From Ferruginibacter sp. (lineage in GTDB: Bacteria > Bacteroidota > Bacteroidia > Chitinophagales > Chitinophagaceae), in the NCBI GenBank assembly GCA_014379905.1, contig JACMKX010000169.1:1-64000 (forward strand): DNA of 64,000 nt, in the 5' to 3' direction. Shown piece by piece: positions 17,714-26,983 of the stretch (positions are counted from its first letter, which is position 1; each line of letters opens with the position of its first letter). The position numbers and the translations under genes were made by a program. The notes beneath the pieces were generated by a model that worked only from the letters and a program-made list of their open reading frames with translations, ran no database searches and had not been told where the DNA came from.

Positions 17714-18730
17714 ATGGAGGTTAAAATTAAGCATTTTAATTTATTGTTTAAACATAAGTTTACTATTTCCAAGGGAAGCAAGACCCACCAGTCTATTATA
17801 ATAGTTGAACTTGATCATTTTGGCGTTAAAGGATATGGTGAAGCGCCGATGATCAGCTACTATAATATTACTGTTGAAAAAATGCTCGAAGACATGGAAA
17901 AGAAGAAAAGCTTTCTTGAAAAATTCGCTTTCTCCGACCCTGAACGATACTGGCATTACCTGCATCACCTTTTTCCCGATAATTCTTTTTTAGTATGTGC
18001 GCTGGATATGGCAGGCTGGGATCTTTACGGTAAAATAAAAAGAAAACAATTGCATGAATTATGGGGATTGGATATCGAGAAAGCCCCTGTTACCGATTTC
18101 ACTATTGGTATAGATACTATTGAAAATATGGTGGCAAAAATGAAAGAACAACCCTGGCCCATTTATAAAATAAAGGTAGGGGTGGAGAATGACATGGAAA
18201 TGGTAGCTGAACTGCGCAAACATACGGATGCAGTTTTTAGGGTAGATGCCAATGCAGGCTGGAGTTTGGAACAGGCCTTAGAAAAAATTCCTGTATTAAA
18301 AAAGCTGGGCGTAGAATTGCTGGAGCAACCGTTGGCCAAACAGGACTGGGAAGGTATGAAAACCCTGTATACCGTGTCTGCCATACCGCTAATTGCGGAT
18401 GAAAGTTGCGTTTCGGAAGCCGATGTAAAAAAATGCCATAAGCATTTTCATGGTATTAATATCAAACTAACCAAGTGCGGGGGTATTACGCCGGCCCGCA
18501 GAATGATTACAAAAGCGCGCGAACTGCAGATGGACATCATGATTGGATGTATGAATGAAAGTTCTGTAGGAACTGCCGCCATTGCACAACTGGCGCCATT
18601 AGTGGACTACGTGGACATGGACGGGCCCCTTTTGCTGGCAGAAGATATTGCCAGGGGGGTGGGTTTTGATTTTGGTAAAATTATTTATACTGCTTCACCC
18701 GGTTTAGGACTTGAAATTGAACCGTTGTAA
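17714..18730 (+). CDS. dipeptide epimerase (L-Ala-D/L-Glu epimerase, enolase superfamily)
   Basis: 338-residue muconate-lactonizing-type enolase superfamily member. Visible catalytic residues: Lys of the K-x-K motif in IYKIKVGVEND (about residue 155), metal ligands Asp in FRVDANAGWS (about 178), Glu in LLEQPLAKQD (about 204), Asp in LIADESCV (about 229), and the second base Lys in NIKLTKCGGI (about 253). A MIGCMNESSVGT segment, typical of dipeptide epimerases, follows. Likely role: epimerisation of L-Ala-D-Glu from murein turnover. It diverges from the T9SS protein gene with an 80-base spacer, and is followed by the his leader region. Confidence 0.92.
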   Translation: MEVKIKHFNLLFKHKFTISKGSKTHQSIIIVELDHFGVKGYGEAPMISYYNITVEKMLEDMEKKKSFLEKFAFSDPERYWHYLHHLFPDNSFLVCALDMAGWDLYGKIKRKQLHELWGLDIEKAPVTDFTIGIDTIENMVAKMKEQPWPIYKIKVGVENDMEMVAELRKHTDAVFRVDANAGWSLEQALEKIPVLKKLGVELLEQPLAKQDWEGMKTLYTVSAIPLIADESCVSEADVKKCHKHFHGINIKLTKCGGITPARRMITKARELQMDIMIGCMNESSVGTAAIAQLAPLVDYVDMDGPLLLAEDIARGVGFDFGKIIYTASPGLGLEIEPL

Positions 18731-18736
18731 ATTTTA

Positions 18737-18768
18737 TTTGGTGAAATAATTTATCAGTCTTTACTTTG
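18737..18768 (+). promoter_or_regulatory. putative promoter of the his operon leader
   Basis: TTTG (18737-18740), a 20-base spacer and TTACTTTG (18761-18768) resemble the Bacteroidota -33/-7 pair TTTG...TAnnTTTG with one mismatch. The predicted start would fall a few bases before the leader ATG at 18777, giving a nearly leaderless transcript. Confidence 0.45.
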
Positions 18769-18776
18769 CATTGCAA

Positions 18777-18827
18777 ATGAAACAAAATATTCATATAAAC
18801 CATCATCATTATTTTGCCGAAGGGTAA
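18777..18827 (+). CDS. hisL: his operon leader peptide (16 residues)
   Basis: ATG to TAA encodes MKQNIHINHHHYFAEG, with four His codons: one single and three in a row. This is far above chance for a 16-codon frame, and it lies directly upstream of a strong terminator and the hisG operon. By analogy to enterobacterial HisL, ribosome stalling at the CAT-CAT-CAT run when charged tRNA-His is scarce would expose the antiterminator. The stop codon UAA lies inside the proposed antiterminator 5' arm. The peptide itself has no expected function. It is too short for the ORF track. Confidence 0.88.
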   Translation: MKQNIHINHHHYFAEG

Positions 18828-18898
18828 GCTATGCTGATTGGTATGTAATCAAACATATTTTCAAAAAAGGGCTTACTCAAAAGGTAAGCCCTTTTTTT
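18822..18898 (+). promoter_or_regulatory. his operon transcription attenuator (antiterminator/terminator switch)
   Basis: Two mutually exclusive pairings can be read. Antiterminator: GGGTAAGCT (18822-18830) with GGCTTACTC (18870-18878), nine pairs including two G-U, enclosing a small TGATT/AATCA hairpin. Terminator: AAAGGGCTTAC (18866-18876) with GTAAGCCCTTT (18884-18894). The shared segment GGGCTTAC belongs to both. A ribosome reaching the leader stop codon would cover the antiterminator arm; one stalled on the His codons would not. Confidence 0.85.
18866..18898 (+). terminator. attenuator terminator before hisG
   Basis: An 11-bp perfect stem with a 7-base loop followed by a T run. It lies about 110 bases before hisG; the dipeptide epimerase stop is another 135 bases upstream, with the leader peptide between. 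Confidence 0.92.
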
Positions 18899-18931: not shown

Positions 18932-18959
18932 TTCACCATTGCCCATTCACCATTGACGA
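18932..18959 (+). repeat. short heptanucleotide tract between attenuator and hisG
   Basis: Four 7-base units TTCACCA, TTGCCCA, TTCACCA, TTGACGA. This is the reverse-complement style of the TGGTGAA units seen after hisF and sufS. Confidence 0.5.
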
Positions 18960-19011: not shown

Positions 19012-19863
19012 ATGCTGAAAATTGCGATTCAAAAATCCGGGAGACTTTATGAAGACTCTATCAGGTTATTAAAGGAATGCGGAATAGAATTAAACAACGG
19101 TAACAAACAATTAAAAGCGGTTGCATTTAATTTCCCCCTGGAAGTATATTTTTTAAGGGATGATGATATTCCCCAGTATGTATATGACGGGGTTGCAGAT
19201 ATTGGAATTGTTGGCGAAAATGTATTGTTGGAAAAAACTAAAGATATCGACCTGGTTTACCGCCTTGGTTTTGGAAGGTGCAGGTTGAGTATTGCCGTTC
19301 CAAAGGCCATGCAGTATGAATCCTTGGATGATTTAAGAGGTTTGAAAATTGCCACAACTTATTCGACTATCCTCCAGGAATATTTATCCCAAAAGCAGGT
19401 GAACGCTGAGATTCATGAGATCAGTGGTTCGGTGGAGATTGCACCGGGTATCGGACTGGCAGATGCGATCTGCGACCTGGTAAGCAGTGGCAGCACACTT
19501 TTTACTAATGGGTTGAAAGAAGTGGAAGTAATACTGCGGTCTGAAGCTGTTTTGACTGCTAATAAAAATTTATCTGAAGAAAAGAAACAGGTACTGGATA
19601 AATTATTGTTGCGTATCAATGCAGTAAAAACAGCTAAAAACAATAAATACATTTTACTGAATGCACCTAATCACCAGTTAAAGAATATCTTTTCGCTATT
19701 GCCGGGTATGAAGAGCCCAACGGTAGTGCCGCTTGCTGAGGCTGGGTGGAGCAGTGTACAAAGCGTGGTGAACGAAAATGATTTTTGGGAAGTAATTGAA
19801 AAATTAAAACAATATGAAGCGCAGGGCATTATTGTAATCCCGATTGAGAAGATGATTGTTTAG
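19012..19863 (+). CDS. hisG: ATP phosphoribosyltransferase, long form (HisG-L)
   Basis: First and committed enzyme of histidine synthesis, joining ATP and PRPP. 283 residues is the long form. Residues 1-210 are the periplasmic-binding-protein-like catalytic part: KIAIQKSGRLYEDSIRLLKECGI, DDIPQYVYDGVADIGIVGENVL, and the PRPP-binding loop DLVSSGSTLFTNGLKEVE (about 160-177). Residues about 212-283 form the C-terminal ACT-like regulatory domain (KYILLNAPNHQLKNIFSLLPGMKSPTV in two parts), which binds histidine for feedback inhibition. No HisZ partner is needed. It is the first structural gene after the attenuator. Confidence 0.97.
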   Translation: MLKIAIQKSGRLYEDSIRLLKECGIELNNGNKQLKAVAFNFPLEVYFLRDDDIPQYVYDGVADIGIVGENVLLEKTKDIDLVYRLGFGRCRLSIAVPKAMQYESLDDLRGLKIATTYSTILQEYLSQKQVNAEIHEISGSVEIAPGIGLADAICDLVSSGSTLFTNGLKEVEVILRSEAVLTANKNLSEEKKQVLDKLLLRINAVKTAKNNKYILLNAPNHQLKNIFSLLPGMKSPTVVPLAEAGWSSVQSVVNENDFWEVIEKLKQYEAQGIIVIPIEKMIV

Positions 19864-19968
19864 GCTTGCAACCACCCGGAAATGGATATCGTTGAGGCCT
19901 GTAATTGTTTTATTTGAATATTGAGCATTGAACATTTTCCTATCGATGATGAACTGATAAAATGTATT

Positions 19969-21264
19969 ATGGAGAGAATATTTATTAACCCCGATAAAAA
20001 AGACTGGGCCGGCATTTTGCAACGGCCGGTTTTTGATAGCAAAGCATTGGAAGGGACCGTGTCGGCGATATTAACGGATATAAAATTAAATGGAGACGAA
20101 GCAATAAAAAAATATGCGGCCCGGTTTGACGGAGTTGAACTGGATGATGTAAAAGTGAACGATGGAGAAATAGAAGAGGCGTTAAAAATGGTGAGCGATG
20201 AATTGAAGGCAGCTATATTGGTAGCTAAAGATAATATACAGAAATTTCACGAGGCGCAGGCGCAGCATCCAGCGCAGATCGAAACCACCAGGGGGGTGTT
20301 GTGCTGGAGAAAATCAATTGCCATACAAAAAATTGGATTGTATATTCCCGGGGGTACCGCGGCTTTGTTTTCTACTTTGCTGATGCTGGGCGTGCCGGCA
20401 GTGCTGGCTGGTTGCAAAGAGATTATAGTGTGTACGCCCTGCGATAAAAATGGAAAAGTAAACCCTGTAGTTTTGTATGTGGCCCATTTGATCGGGATAA
20501 GAAATATTTATAAAATTGGTGGTGCGCAGGCAATAGGGGCGATGGCGTATGGAACAACTACCATTAAACAGGTAAATAAAATATTTGGGCCAGGTAACCA
20601 ATATGTAACCTGCGCAAAACAATTGGTGAACAGGGAGGGTTTGGCAATTGACATGCCCGCAGGCCCAAGCGAGGTAGCCGTATATGCAGATGAAACCTGT
20701 GATCCTGCTTTTGTGGCTTCCGATCTGTTGAGCCAGGCGGAGCATGGGGTTGATAGCCAGGTACTATTGGTTGCAGGTTCGCGGTTTGTAGTTGACGCAG
20801 TAATAAAAGAAATTAACCACCAGTTGCCCTTGCTTTCAAGAAATAAAATTGCAGGAACAGCATTACAAAACAGCCGCTTTGTGGTAATGGAAAATGCAGG
20901 TGCAGCATTCGATTTGCTGAATGAATACGCCCCCGAGCATTTGATCATTGCTTCAGGTAATGCCCTGGAATTGTCAGTTAAGGTAATAAATGCAGGGAGT
21001 GTATTTTTAGGCAATTATTCTCCTGAAAGTGCAGGTGATTATGCTTCAGGTACCAATCATACACTTCCCACCAATGGATATGCAAAAGCCTATAGTGGTG
21101 TATCTTTGGATAGCTTTGTTAAGAAAATCACTTTTCAATATATGGATAAAGAGGGTATTCAGAATATCGGTAATACCATTGAAATAATGGCGGCTGCGGA
21201 GGGACTGGATGCACATAAAAATGCAGTGACTTTGAGGTTAGAAAAGATCCGAAAAAGTCGGTAA
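19969..21264 (+). CDS. hisD: histidinol dehydrogenase
   Basis: Zinc enzyme for the last two steps, L-histidinol to L-histidine with two NAD+. Start set at ATG 19969 (MERIFINPDKKDW), giving 431 residues, the usual family length; the ORF track uses a TTG 16 codons earlier. Visible motifs: IGLYIPGGTAALFSTLLMLGVPA, the NAD-binding GPGNQYVTCAKQLV, IDMPAGPSEVAVYAD, the active-site LLSQAEHGVDSQV, APEHLII, and ASGTNHTLPTNGYA. It is about 105 bases after hisG. Confidence 0.97.
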   Translation: MERIFINPDKKDWAGILQRPVFDSKALEGTVSAILTDIKLNGDEAIKKYAARFDGVELDDVKVNDGEIEEALKMVSDELKAAILVAKDNIQKFHEAQAQHPAQIETTRGVLCWRKSIAIQKIGLYIPGGTAALFSTLLMLGVPAVLAGCKEIIVCTPCDKNGKVNPVVLYVAHLIGIRNIYKIGGAQAIGAMAYGTTTIKQVNKIFGPGNQYVTCAKQLVNREGLAIDMPAGPSEVAVYADETCDPAFVASDLLSQAEHGVDSQVLLVAGSRFVVDAVIKEINHQLPLLSRNKIAGTALQNSRFVVMENAGAAFDLLNEYAPEHLIIASGNALELSVKVINAGSVFLGNYSPESAGDYASGTNHTLPTNGYAKAYSGVSLDSFVKKITFQYMDKEGIQNIGNTIEIMAAAEGLDAHKNAVTLRLEKIRKSR

Positions 21265-21329
21265 CGGATGGCTATTGAACAAGCAAAAAATTAACCTGCC
21301 TGCTTTTTAAACGAAATAAAATTCTACAT

Positions 21330-22430
21330 ATGAACGACGCTGAAGATAAAGACGCATCTGCTAAACTCCCTGAAGGTGAAGGACCGCTGGCACTCGATTT
21401 TTTGGTACGAAAAAATATCAAAAAACTTGTACCTTATTCCACCGCCCGTCACGAGTTTACCGGCAGGGCCAGCGTTTTATTAGACGCGAATGAAAACGCT
21501 TATGGTTCGCCGCTCGAAGATAACTTCAACCGTTACCCCGATCCATTGCAATGGCAATTGAAATATGCGATTGCCGGGATTAAAGGAGTACCTGCAGAAA
21601 ATATCTTTATTGGAAACGGAAGCGATGAAGTGATCGATATTGCTTACCGTATTTTTTGCGACCCGTTAAAAGATAATGTAATTATCTGTCCGCCTACTTA
21701 CGGCATGTATGAAGTGAGTGCCAATATCAATAATGTGGATATCAGGAAGGTAAATCTTACACCGGGTTTCCAGTTAGATGTGCAGGGGATATTAAATGCC
21801 GTAGATGACAGTACAAAATTATTATTCATCTGTTCCCCCAATAATCCAACTGCCAATAATATGAACCGGGGTGATGTGGAAGTATTGTTGAATAATTTTC
21901 CGGGAATTATTTTAATTGATGAAGCTTATATCAATTACTCCAAACAAAAAACATTTATACAGGAGCTGACGGAATATCCTAACCTGGTGGTTATGCAAAC
22001 ATTATCTAAAGCATGGGGACTTGCCGCATTGCGTTTAGGGATTTGCTATGCCTCCGGCGATATCATTAACCTGTATAATAAAGTAAAGCCCCCTTATAAT
22101 ATCAATGAAGCATCACAGGAACTTGCTTTGGAAGCGCTGCAGCATACAGAGCAGGTAAATAACTGGATAAAGGAAGTGGTTACGCAGAAGAATTTTCTTA
22201 TCAAAAAATTGTTGGAATGCCGTTTTGTTGAAAAAATTCACCCGAGCGATGCAAATTTTTTATTAGTAAAAGTTAAAGATGCTGATGCCTTATACCAGTA
22301 CCTGGCAAAAAATGAGATCGTGGTAAGAAACCGGAGCAAAGAAGTATTATGTGATAATTGCCTGAGGATAACCATTGGCACACCGGAAGAAAATTTACAA
22401 TTAACAAGAATAATTAAAGCGTATGAATGA
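21330..22430 (+). CDS. hisC: histidinol-phosphate aminotransferase
   Basis: PLP enzyme converting imidazole-acetol phosphate to L-histidinol phosphate. 366 residues, fold-type I. Visible features: [12 protein letters not shown] near the N-terminus, [26 protein letters not shown] (substrate and PLP site), [14 protein letters not shown] lysine in [14 protein letters not shown] (about residue 231), and the carboxylate-binding Arg in CLRITIGT near the end. The first 30 residues are an extension not seen in all homologues, and a later start cannot be excluded. It overlaps hisB by 8 bases. Confidence 0.97.
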
Positions 22431-23625
22431 CAATGCCCAAGCAATAACTACCCAAATCCCCGATCAGGCGGCAGGGTTGAAACGGGTTAAAATATTATTT
22501 ATTGACCGCGATGGGGTATTGATAAAAGAAGCTCCGCCAACTTACCAGCTCGATTCTTTTGAGAAATTGCAGTTTTACCCGGGTGTATTTGAATATTTAA
22601 GGAAAATCGCCACTGAACTCGAGTACGAATTGATAATGGTTACCAACCAGGATGGATTAGGAACCCCTTCCTTCCCGGAGAACACATTTTTGCCCGTTCA
22701 TAATTTTGTAATAAACAGTCTCGCGAATGAAGGCATTCATTTTAGTGAAGTGTATATTGACAGAACATTTGCGAAGGATAAATCGCCTACCCGCAAACCG
22801 GGAACCGGGATGCTCACAAAATATTTGAACAATCCTCGTTATGATCTTACCAACTCGTTTGTAATTGGCGACAGGGTCACGGATATGCAACTGGCAAAAA
22901 ATTTAGGTTGTAAAGGTTGCTGGTTAAATAACGATGCAAGTTTAGGCGCCACAGAAATTAACAGTACTATTGAAGATTTAAGAAAAGAAGTGATTGTGCT
23001 GGAGTCGCCCCATTGGAAAGACATCTACAACTATTTAAAATTGCCGCCACGAATTATTACACACGAGCGAAATACCAACGAGACAAAAATAAAAGTAACC
23101 ATAAATCTTGATGGAACCGGTAAATCAGCTATCCAGACAGGACTGGCTTTTTTTGATCATATGCTCGACCAGCTTGCCCGGCATGGAAATATTGATCTGA
23201 CCGTTGAATGCCGGGGCGATCTGCAAATTGATGAGCACCACAGTATTGAAGATACGGGCATTGCATTGGGTGAAGCTTTTGTAAAAGTCTTAGGCGATAA
23301 AAGGGGTATCGAAAGGTACGGGTTTTTATTACCCATGGATGATTGCCTGGCACAGGTAGCCATTGATTTTGGCGGCCGGAGCTGGCTGGTATGGGAAGCG
23401 GAATTTAAAAGAGAAAAAATTGGTGAAATGCCTACGGAAATGTTTTTTCATTTCTTCAAATCATTCAGCGATGCGGCCAAATGCAATATCAATATAAAGG
23501 CAACAGGCGACAATGAACATCATAAAATTGAATCTATTTTTAAGGCATTTGCAAAAGCAATTAAAATGGCCGTCAAAAAAGACGTCAACAATAATTCTTT
23601 ACCAAGCACAAAAGGGGTGCTTTAG
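22423..23625 (+). CDS. hisB: bifunctional histidinol-phosphatase / imidazoleglycerol-phosphate dehydratase
   Basis: 400-residue fusion. The N-domain (about 22-190) is a HAD-type histidinol-phosphatase: nucleophile motif [25 protein letters not shown], and [17 protein letters not shown]. The C-domain (about 205-400) is imidazoleglycerol-phosphate dehydratase, with manganese ligand motifs [29 protein letters not shown] and [17 protein letters not shown]. This two-domain HisB is also found in enteric bacteria. It starts inside the end of hisC, implying translational coupling. Confidence 0.97.
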
Positions 23626-23657
23626 GATATAGGGGCTGGTGCATCACTGAAAGAAAC

Positions 23658-23727
23658 AGAACATCAACTAACAGCGCTCAACTAACAACCATCAACTAAC
23701 AACCATCAACCATCAACCACGAGCATC
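23658..23727 (+). repeat. heptanucleotide-periodic tract before hisH
   Basis: Ten consecutive 7-base units dominated by CAACTAA and CAACCAT, ending 7 bases before the hisH ATG. It fills most of the 109-base hisB-hisH spacer. Confidence 0.75.
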
Positions 23728-23734
23728 AATCAAA

Positions 23735-24328
23735 ATGATAGCAATAATTAAATACAATGCGGGTAACGTGCAAAGCGTGCAATATGCTTTAGAACGGATT
23801 GGCGTAGCGTCTGTAGTTACGGATGATGCGATGTTAATACAACGTGCGGATAAAGTGATTTTTCCCGGTGTTGGTCATGCCCATGCAGCTATGCGGTATT
23901 TGAGGGAAAGGGGATTGGATAAACTGATCATATCTTTACAACAACCGGTACTCGGGATTTGCCTCGGCCTCCAGTTAATGTGCAGGCACTCTGAAGAAGG
24001 CGATACCTCGTGCCTGGGTATATTTGACGAGAACGTTATTCTATTTCCAACATCGGGCAAGATGAAACTAAAAATACCGCAGATAGGCTGGAATAATATT
24101 TACGATTATAAGTCGGTATTATTTAATGGCCTCAGCGAAAACGCATTTGTTTATACCGTTCATAGTTATTTTGCCGCGGAGGGTAAGGAAACCATTGCCA
24201 CAACGGACTATATCCTTCCTTACAGTGCCGCACTTGAGAAGGATAATTTTTATGCGGTGCAGTTTCATCCTGAAAAATCAGGAAGGGTAGGGGAATCGAT
24301 ATTAAAAAACTTTATCAATATACCATGA
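23735..24328 (+). CDS. hisH: imidazole glycerol phosphate synthase, glutaminase subunit
   Basis: Class I glutamine amidotransferase that supplies ammonia to HisF. 197 residues. The catalytic triad is visible: Cys in VLGICLGLQLMC (about residue 76), and His and Glu in AVQFHPEKSGRVGE (about 177-179). The oxyanion and N-terminal strand motifs IIKYNAGNVQSVQYAL and FPGVGHAHAAM are also present. Its TGA overlaps the hisA ATG (ATGA), a sign of coupled translation. Confidence 0.97.
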   Translation: MIAIIKYNAGNVQSVQYALERIGVASVVTDDAMLIQRADKVIFPGVGHAHAAMRYLRERGLDKLIISLQQPVLGICLGLQLMCRHSEEGDTSCLGIFDENVILFPTSGKMKLKIPQIGWNNIYDYKSVLFNGLSENAFVYTVHSYFAAEGKETIATTDYILPYSAALEKDNFYAVQFHPEKSGRVGESILKNFINIP

Positions 24329-25062
24329 TCATCATCCCTGCAATAGATATTATTAATGGCAAATGCGTCAGGCTTACCAGGGGCGATTACGCTCAACAGG
24401 TAGTGTACAACGATAACCCGGTGGAAGTGGCTAAGCAGTTTGAGGGAGCGGGGATAAAAAGATTGCATATCGTTGACCTTGACGGCGCAAAGGAGGGCAG
24501 GATAATAAATTTAAAAGTGTTGGAAAATATCGCGTTAGCAACAGGGCTGGTGATCGATTTTGGAGGGGGGGTAAAAACCATCACTGATGTAAGCAATATA
24601 TTCAATGCAGGTGCCGCCATTGTAACCATTGGCAGCATGGCGGTAAAGCATCCTGAATTGCTGGAAGAATGGCTGATGGAATTCGGGACGGAGCAGTTTC
24701 TAATTGGGGCAGATGTACTGGATGGTAAAATAAAAATCAGCGGCTGGCTCGAAGACGGGGATATCGGTATTTTTGATTTTATTGGTAAAATGCTCAGTCT
24801 TGGGGTCACCAATATTTTCTGCACTGATATTTCAAAAGACGGTGCTATGGAAGGGCCCTCCGCGGACTTGTATAAAAAAATAATTGAGGAACATCCTGAA
24901 GTCAGCTTGATAGCGAGTGGTGGTGTAAGTAATATCGATGATGTGCTGTTATTAAAAGAGACAGGATGTAAAGGTGCGATTATTGGAAAAGCAATCTATG
25001 AAGGTAAAATACCCCTGAATCCCTTTGAAGCTGACTTAAATGCATATAAATATTTCAAATGA
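24325..25062 (+). CDS. hisA: ProFAR isomerase (HisA)
   Basis: Beta/alpha-barrel Amadori isomerase converting ProFAR to PRFAR, 245 residues. The general acid/base Asp residues are in IIPAIDIINGKCVRL (about residue 8) and in LIGADVLDGKIKISGW (about 130). Phosphate-binding loops DFGGGVKT and ASGGVSNIDD are present. It overlaps hisH by four bases and is 30 bases from hisF. Confidence 0.97.
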   Translation: MIIIPAIDIINGKCVRLTRGDYAQQVVYNDNPVEVAKQFEGAGIKRLHIVDLDGAKEGRIINLKVLENIALATGLVIDFGGGVKTITDVSNIFNAGAAIVTIGSMAVKHPELLEEWLMEFGTEQFLIGADVLDGKIKISGWLEDGDIGIFDFIGKMLSLGVTNIFCTDISKDGAMEGPSADLYKKIIEEHPEVSLIASGGVSNIDDVLLLKETGCKGAIIGKAIYEGKIPLNPFEADLNAYKYFK

Positions 25063-25092
25063 TTTTATTATCAGGATTAATCCCGGCTTATA

Positions 25093-25914
25093 ATGAATGA
25101 TGGCCCTGCAAATACTGAAACTTTACTCAACACCCATTTAGGTGCAGGAGTTCACGGCCTTACAAAGAGGATCATTCCATGCCTGGATATTAAAGACGGC
25201 AGAACCGTGAAAGGCATCAACTTCGAAGATATCCGCGATGCCGGTGACCCGGTTGAACTGGCCATATTGTATTCAGGAAAAGGAGCGGATGAATTGGTTT
25301 TCCTGGATATCACCGCAACTATAGAAAAAAGAAAAACCCTGGTTGAACTGGTAAAACGTATTGCCGCCAATATCAATATACCATTTACGGTAGGAGGTGG
25401 TATCAGTACGGTAGAAGATGTGGGCGTTTTGCTGAAAAATGGCGCCGATAAGGTTTCTGTCAATACCGCGGCGTTTAAGCATCCCGCTTTAATAGAGCAA
25501 TTGAGTAATGAATTTGGCAGTCAGTGTGTGGTTTTGGCGATTGATACCAAAAAAGAGCAAGATGGGGAATGGTATGTTTACCTGGATGGTGGAAGAACAA
25601 AAACTGAAATGAAAACAACGGAATGGGCGGGCAGTGCAGTAGCTTTAGGGGCAGGTGAAATATTACTAACGTCCATGAATAACGATGGCACCAAAAATGG
25701 CTTTGCTTTGGATATCACCGCAACCCTTTCCAATACATTACCCGTTCCGGTGATTGCATCCGGCGGAGCGGGAAGCATGGCGCATTTTAAAGAAGTATTT
25801 GAATCCGGCAATGCGGATGCGGCGCTGGCCGCCAGTATATTTCATTACAAGGAAATTGAAATAACAGACCTGAAAAACTATTTATCCGAACAGGGGATAA
25901 GGGTTAGGTTGTGA
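25093..25914 (+). CDS. hisF: imidazole glycerol phosphate synthase, cyclase subunit
   Basis: Beta/alpha-barrel cyclase partner of HisH. The core starts at [19 protein letters not shown] (catalytic Asp in CLDIKDG) and contains [11 protein letters not shown], the second Asp in VLAIDTKKE, and [14 protein letters not shown]. At 273 residues it is about 20 longer than usual because of an N-terminal extension ([19 protein letters not shown]). No closer ATG exists in front of the core, so a start at 25093 is kept; a non-ATG start near LTKRII is possible. Confidence 0.96.
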
Positions 25915-25981
25915 GTGAATTGGTGAATGGTGAATAGGCAAAAGACAGTGCAATTATTCACCAGTGCCCATTTACCCTTAG
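25915..25981 (+). repeat. heptanucleotide units after hisF, in both orientations
   Basis: Directly after the stop codon come GTGAATT, GGTGAAT, GGTGAAT, AGGCAAA, and about 12 bases later complementary-style units TTATTCA, CCAGTGC, CCATTTA, CCCTTAG. The two halves can pair (GGTGAATA with TATTCACC) into a hairpin. Confidence 0.6.
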
Positions 25982-26145
25982 ACAAATTATACGGCTGCGC
26001 TGGTAACCCCATCGCAACAGGTTTATTGAAAATAAATAATAGGATTAAGTAGATAGTTCGCAAAAGCAGTGCTAGTATGATTTTGGTAAATGCGCCATGG
26101 TCGATTTTAAATCAGTAACTGCATAAGCAGCCTCTTTTGGATCGG

Positions 26146-26274
26146 TCACGGCGAAGCCGTGATTCAGCATTTCGGCTACGCTCAATGCTTCAATAACATA
26201 ATATTGAGCGTAGCCGAAATGTTGAAAGATGCAAAAGCAGCTGCGTTGCAGTTACGCAGCCCCGCCGGCTGGGG
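26146..26274 (+). repeat. cluster of four consecutive hairpins between hisF and hisIE
   Basis: Hairpin 1: TCACGGC-GAA-GCCGTGA (26146-26162). Hairpin 2: a 19-bp perfect inverted repeat (arms 26168-26186 and 26203-26221), extendable to about 24 bp. Hairpin 3: GCTGCGT/ACGCAGC (26240-26260). Hairpin 4: CCCC/GGGG (26260-26274). No ORF is present. Nature unknown: REP-like element, processing site, or structured RNA. Confidence 0.65.
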
Positions 26275-26377
26275 AGGCGAAAGTTAGCATTCTAAAAGGA
26301 ATACCCAATATAGAAAAGCATATGCGAATCATCCACCTAATCCAAATAAATAATTTACCACCAGAAAAAAACGGATA

Positions 26378-26983
26378 ATGAATATTGATTTTAGCAAATA
26401 TGCCGATGGACTTGTACCAGCTATAATACAGGATGATGTTACCGGAAAAGTGCTAATGCTTGGCTTTATGAACGATGAAGCGCTGGCTAAAACAAAGGAG
26501 TTGCAAAAGGTTACTTTCTTTAGCAGGGGTAAAAACAGGCTATGGACAAAAGGAGAGGAAAGCGGTAATTTTCTTTTACTAAAAGATATCAAGTCGGATT
26601 GTGATAACGATACCCTGTTAATAAAGGTAAAGCCTGTTGGCCCGGTTTGCCATACCGGCGCGGATACCTGCTGGAATGAAAAAAATATCAACGATAATTT
26701 TTTGTTTCAACTGGAAGAAATCATCAGGGATAGAAAAAATAATCCTGCTGAAAAATCCTACACCAGTTCTTTATTCGAAAAAGGGATCAATAAAATCGCG
26801 CAGAAAGTAGGTGAAGAAGCGGTGGAATTAGTAATTGAAGCAAAAGATGATAATGAAGATCTTTTTAAAAATGAAGCGGCTGACCTCTTGTTTCATTATT
26901 TAATATTGTTGCAGGCCAAGGGTCATACATTGAGCGAGATACAGGATGTGTTGATTGCCAGGCACAAGGAAAAAGTTCAATAA
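26378..26983 (+). CDS. hisI: bifunctional phosphoribosyl-AMP cyclohydrolase / phosphoribosyl-ATP pyrophosphatase
   Basis: HisIE fusion for steps 2 and 3, 201 residues. Residues 1-105 are the cyclohydrolase: MLGFMNDEAL, FFSRGKNRLWTKGEESGN, the metal site DIKSDCDNDTLL and zinc cysteines in GPVCHTGADTCW. Residues about 115-201 are the all-alpha MazG-like pyrophosphatase: SLFEKGINKIAQKVGEEAVELVIEAK and NEAADLLFHYLILLQAKG. It is the last his gene, separated from hisF by 463 bases holding repeats, so it may have lower or separate expression. It converges on the PH-domain gene with only four bases between stops. Confidence 0.97.
   Translation: MNIDFSKYADGLVPAIIQDDVTGKVLMLGFMNDEALAKTKELQKVTFFSRGKNRLWTKGEESGNFLLLKDIKSDCDNDTLLIKVKPVGPVCHTGADTCWNEKNINDNFLFQLEEIIRDRKNNPAEKSYTSSLFEKGINKIAQKVGEEAVELVIEAKDDNEDLFKNEAADLLFHYLILLQAKGHTLSEIQDVLIARHKEKVQ

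Follow-up and report, generated by a model that had tools for sequence, protein, structure and literature searches.

A probable leader-peptide attenuator of the histidine operon in a Ferruginibacter genome, with a 5' end predicted to lie almost at the leader start codon

The window (the whole 64,000-nucleotide stretch of DNA analysed) carries a histidine biosynthesis operon in the order hisGDCBHAF-hisIE, with a gap of ~460 nt between hisF and hisIE, downstream of an epimerase-like gene (17714-18730) on the same strand as hisG (Table 1). Directly preceding hisG is a short open reading frame with four His codons at 18792, 18801, 18804 and 18807 (codons 6, 9, 10 and 11), all of them CAT and the last three consecutive, closed by a TAA stop codon at 18825-18827; the description of this frame in an earlier sequence-only reading (16 codons, four of them His, three in a row) is confirmed in each of these respects. 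The window contains 752 frames that open with ATG and span 10-30 codons, and no other of them has three His codons in a row, an event for which the random expectation in such frames is ~0.33 per strand.

Table 1. Features of the histidine operon and its leader region in the window
Feature	Coordinates	Strand	Details
Predicted sigma-A promoter, Bacteroidota type	18737..18768	+	TTTG 18737-18740, 20-nt spacer, TTACTTTG 18761-18768
Leader peptide frame MKQNIHINHHHYFAEG	18777..18827	+	ATG...TAA, 16 codons
Protector (1:2) hairpin	18795..18846	+	18795-18818 x 18823-18846; holds the three-codon His run and the stop codon
Antiterminator (2:3)	18822..18878	+	18822-18830 x 18870-18878, 18835-18837 x 18861-18863, 18840-18846 x 18853-18859
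Intrinsic terminator (3:4)	18863..18898	+	18863-18877 x 18883-18897; GC core GGGCTTAC / GTAAGCCC
hisG, first gene of the controlled operon	19012..19863	+	TIGR00070, 196 bits vs cut-off 75.75
hisD, hisC, bifunctional hisB, hisH, hisA, hisF, hisIE	19951..26983	+	NCBIfam equivalog matches

The full classical set of protector, antiterminator and terminator helices is present at the leader, and in folding the antiterminator is mutually exclusive both with the terminator and with the protector. The protector, missed in the sequence-only reading, carries the His run on its 5' side; its core has a pairing probability of 0.98 in a transcript ending at 18850, and the hairpin is also found in the consensus fold. 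The 5' arm of the antiterminator, GGGTAAGCT (18822-18830), includes the stop codon and forms nine outer pairs, as had been claimed, to which an inner part not described before adds up to 19 pairs in total. Likewise borne out is the segment shared between two helices, GGGCTTAC at 18869-18876, which is common to the antiterminator and the terminator, while the terminator itself, formerly given as an 11-bp stem with a T run, has 13-15 pairs when its A-U extension is counted, with T7 at 18892-18898. The fold of the leader region has a z-score of -4.97, none of 200 dinucleotide shuffles folding as well. One mechanical terminator scan listed no terminator at the leader, most likely because under its stem rule the T run is absorbed into the stem; in every test by direct folding the terminator is seen.

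A genome scan with HisG yielded 80 loci, mainly from Chitinophagales, with Ferruginibacter as the nearest named genus. A His-rich leader frame ending 74-270 nt before hisG was identified in 77 of the 79 related hisG loci with upstream DNA, a recurrence that rules out coincidence and disposes of the possibility, raised in the sequence-only reading, that relatives might have no such leader; in one further entry (L011) the sequence is cut inside the leader, with His codons still visible. A frame of this kind would be missed by annotation, yet it stands ahead of hisG in nearly all examined relatives. A terminator is present in 77 of 79 entries (the window and the second copy, L082, counted), the exceptions being L018, with masked bases, and L065, which has a hairpin with a short T run, and in every locus computed the His run is followed by a segment complementary to the 5' arm of the terminator, the paired part of which mostly starts ~13 nt past the last His codon. 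At one locus (L069:1613-2013) the His-rich leader has been lost, with a -7-type box and a terminator-like hairpin remnant retained; either this relative has naturally escaped attenuation or the assembly is at fault here.

Conservation of pairing differs in kind between the helices. In the terminator, 99.6% of cells are paired and four pairs have changes on both sides, and no shuffle out of 500 matches it on paired cells and on the covariation score. The outer antiterminator core is paired in 96% of cells (50 sequences) and the protector core in 94.7%, compared with only 18-61% in slid alignments of the two. Covariation was sought in both cores within the clade, and in the 19-pair version of the antiterminator in the near group, and none was found; the cores are nearly invariant, because segments 2 and 3 each must pair with two partners. 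The expected outcome of comparing regions upstream of hisG, conserved His runs together with compensatory changes in both stems, was thus obtained for the near-universal runs and for the terminator, and not for the antiterminator and protector cores. At each of the 69 loci compared, the inner part of the antiterminator folds more stably than its shuffles (combined z -13.6), and over the same number of loci the protector reaches a combined z of -11.9; support for these two predicted helices comes from such shuffles and from other families, described below, in which the entire core has been replaced.

The effect of a ribosome on these structures was computed by folding growing transcripts with a 31-nt ribosome footprint barred from pairing, co-transcriptional order being approximated by transcript length only. 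Without a ribosome, a transcript to 18850 forms the protector (0.98 in a constrained fold) and a transcript to 18882 the antiterminator (0.98, an equilibrium value, for which the earlier-formed protector would have to open). In the transcript to 18882, a footprint on any His codon gives the antiterminator at 1.00 and a footprint on the stop codon reduces it to 0.00: at the His codons the ribosome frees segment 2, and at the stop codon it covers it, so that the check once suggested, folding with and without the ribosome-covered segment, comes out in favour of a switch. The antiterminator arm begins ~13 nt past the last His codon; the reach of the ribosome beyond the codon has been put at ~12 nt (PMC4833913). 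Because the full-length transcript adopts the terminator in all cases at equilibrium (1.00), the switch depends on co-transcriptional order, as in other attenuators.

From these elements, the locus is most probably, with a probability of roughly 0.92, a classical ribosome-mediated transcription attenuator of the his operon, the sole reading that fits the His-codon run, the three exclusive helices, the ~13-nt spacing and the place before hisG in nearly every relative, and in this the ribosome-coupled mechanism proposed from the sequence is sustained. RNA polymerase would start near 18773, and the leader frame would be translated during transcription. With ample charged tRNA-His the ribosome would reach the stop codon and cover segment 2 (GGGTAAGC), leaving segment 3 (GGGCTTAC) to pair with segment 4, and transcription would end at the T run before hisG. 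With charged tRNA-His scarce, the ribosome would stall on CAT CAT CAT, break the protector and leave segment 2 free to pair with the emerging segment 3; no terminator would then form and hisGDCBHAF-hisIE would be transcribed. In the absence of a ribosome, the protector would be expected to form first, favouring termination.

Beyond the order, an even sample of 158 genomes was examined, of which 138 have HisG; 69 upstream stretches were taken and hisG was placed in 62. Within the window's class a His-rich frame is listed for each of the 34 loci (doubtfully for L120), as it is for many loci outside the class, where some of the long His-rich frames in the automatic list are probably due to chance. 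Complementarity to segment 2 was better than in shuffles at p <= 0.05 in 29 of 31 terminator-bearing loci, those with a terminator being the only loci outside the class to enter this test. The antiterminator cores differ: that of the window's order is GGTAAGC, whereas one family has CTCAAGCG and another GAGCCGGG, a pattern that points to a mechanism conserved across families while its core sequence is replaced. At five loci upstream of hisG outside the class (L084, L087, L088, L091 and L142), His-rich leaders were observed, some of the form VHHAHHGHHH, behind which an intrinsic terminator was sought and none found; control at these loci may be translational or depend on Rho, or the search may have reached its limits there.

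Sensing by the nascent chain itself would also place a His-rich frame before hisG: the peptide, H-rich with an LPxG motif, would stall the ribosome in the manner of ermC or tnaC with no sensing of tRNA-His charging, and in many relatives the peptide past the His run does seem conserved (HHHHxLPxGK). Yet TT[AG]CC, the partner of segment 2, occurs in all three reading frames relative to the leader, which indicates that RNA pairing and not peptide sequence has been selected; the C-termini of other families are unrelated (for example, CSQAMC) and again match antiterminator arms, whereas the His run alone is common throughout and the target is always hisG. Nascent-peptide arrest is on these grounds very unlikely.

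Upstream of the leader, the -7 box of the predicted promoter has one mismatch to TAnnTTTG and is also readable as TA-N-TTTG. Such a box has been placed at -12 to -5 (PMC9723704); here its end, at 18768, is 8 nt short of the leader AUG, which gives a predicted start near 18773 and a predicted 5' UTR of ~4 nt. Initiation on such a transcript would be near-leaderless and would involve no Shine-Dalgarno sequence, and the earlier suggestion of a nearly leaderless transcript is upheld as far as the position of the motif goes. Of 78 loci, 74 have a box of the same type whose end lies 4-20 nt ahead of the leader ATG; the two successive bins of equal width further upstream contain only 6 and 10 boxes. 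Box-to-ATG spacing has a median of 9 among relatives, for a predicted UTR of ~5 nt; named Chitinophaga loci mostly have longer spacings (15-20), and in other families they are often longer still. The position of promoter-type boxes also bears on a reading in which the hairpin is a plain terminator of the epimerase-like gene, the His-rich frame a coincidence and hisG served by its own downstream promoter, as the location between two same-strand genes might allow. A promoter-type box lies past the upstream stop codon and ahead of the leader, however, and none of the TAnnTTTG type was found between the terminator and hisG, where the sequence-only reading had envisaged that transcripts might begin; judged from the DNA, such starts are not indicated. 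With leader, antiterminator and terminator kept together before hisG in nearly all examined relatives, a plain terminator is extremely unlikely.

Initiation in Bacteroidota mostly proceeds without Shine-Dalgarno sequences, and attenuation requires a ribosome close behind the polymerase; a conserved attenuator whose leader is predicted to begin almost at the RNA 5' end therefore offers a direct test of transcription-translation coupling in this phylum. In mapped transcriptomes of two Bacteroidota species, 5' UTR medians are 24-32 nt, and leaderless or very short 5' UTRs account for only about 4-6% (3.7-5.5%) of mRNAs (PMC7366714, PMC9723704). A broader proposal, to which we would give even odds, is that in Chitinophagaceae the attenuators for amino acids are generally near-leaderless (0-8 nt before the leader AUG), the ribosome loading, with no Shine-Dalgarno step, on the 5' end of the RNA when this emerges from the polymerase, and that his attenuation is ancestral in Bacteroidota, its RNA core having been replaced several times.

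The element is absent from Rfam: no family was found in the window at gathering score, and up to E = 10 no histidine leader family is listed. The only sub-threshold match below E = 0.01 is to Thr_leader (RF00506), at 37.2 bits against a gathering score of 55 over 18773-18898, a likeness in the arrangement matched, although Thr_leader controls thr genes and the match falls below the gathering score. A T-box, histidine riboswitch or protein-binding RNA element sensing without translation has next to no chance of being correct, even though Firmicutes T-boxes serve his-related genes (PMC2965389), given that no Rfam family reaches its gathering score, that the sub-threshold Thr_leader match is itself to a leader-peptide attenuator, and that a translated His run would be purposeless.

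In hisL of E. coli and Salmonella, a His run in a short leader is combined with a protector, an antiterminator and a terminator, and the position of the ribosome acts as the sensor. The element described here is like this enterobacterial system in each of these features and in its location before hisG, but differs in having no Rfam-detected sequence similarity, four rather than seven His codons and a promoter of the TAnnTTTG type; its predicted 5' UTR is almost nil, and it lacks a Shine-Dalgarno sequence. Some attenuators in Bacteroidetes/Chlorobi were reportedly predicted by Vitreschak et al. in 2004. Closer in phylogeny, conserved structured 5' elements with no Rfam hits have been identified in Flavobacteriaceae, Flavobacterium psychrophilum among them, ahead of hisG and pheA, and the same study proposed leader-peptide attenuation for amino-acid operons (PMC9723704). 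The hisG elements share with the present one the phylum, the gene, the proposed mechanism and the lack of an Rfam family, and the statement that such leaders are far less documented in Bacteroidota is accordingly fair but not absolute, the same study giving both clues to attenuation and a 5' element before hisG (PMC9723704). In one other family of our sample the core is CTCAAGCG / CGTTTGAG and the predicted 5' UTRs are longer than that of the window's element; our guess is that this family is Flavobacteriaceae. Leaderless attenuators are represented by trpL of Sinorhizobium meliloti (PMC7298713) and ilvBNC of Corynebacterium glutamicum (PMC11857589), whose leader frames open together with the transcript or no more than 1 nt from its start, with attenuation still working, so that a near-leaderless his attenuator is not a new kind; these belong to other phyla and concern other amino acids, and the start in the window is a predicted one, ~4 nt before the AUG. 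The element is thus a well-supported attenuator of a known type, in which the mechanistic point of interest is the predicted 5' end.

Within the same genome, a covariance model of the element finds both his leaders strongly. The second belongs to another complete his operon in the assembly (L175, G000:C21:56500-70500), with its own attenuator at G000:C21:58951-59069, 61-78% protein identity and the same upstream gene, and is either a true duplication or derived from an admixed related genome (listed contamination 3.25%). Five further weak places (40.6 bits and lower) were dropped, the three that were read being terminator-like hairpins near unrelated genes. Leaders for other amino acids are also present, and their Trp and Thr runs, like the second his leader, count for the attenuator reading. 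A trp leader, MTIIKSNNKCWWWNIIS, with three Trp codons precedes trpE (L161:2954-3007, minus strand), its -7 box 8 nt before the AUG and followed by a GCCCCGACACAGTCGGGGC hairpin with a T run. A thr leader, MFTKNIHITPLCVAPFSGTTTTITTTTR, ending TTTTITTTTR, precedes an aspartokinase/homoserine dehydrogenase gene (L172:721-807), with a -7 box 5 nt before the AUG; no obvious intrinsic terminator was found behind it, and its mechanism may differ from that of the his attenuator. The stretches read ahead of ilvD and ahead of the second homoserine dehydrogenase yielded no convincing leader. In the gap that separates the window's terminator from hisG, the sequence at 18936-18957, CCATTGCCCATTCACCATTGAC, is unique in the genome, and a CCATTGA tandem on contig C69 resembles it.
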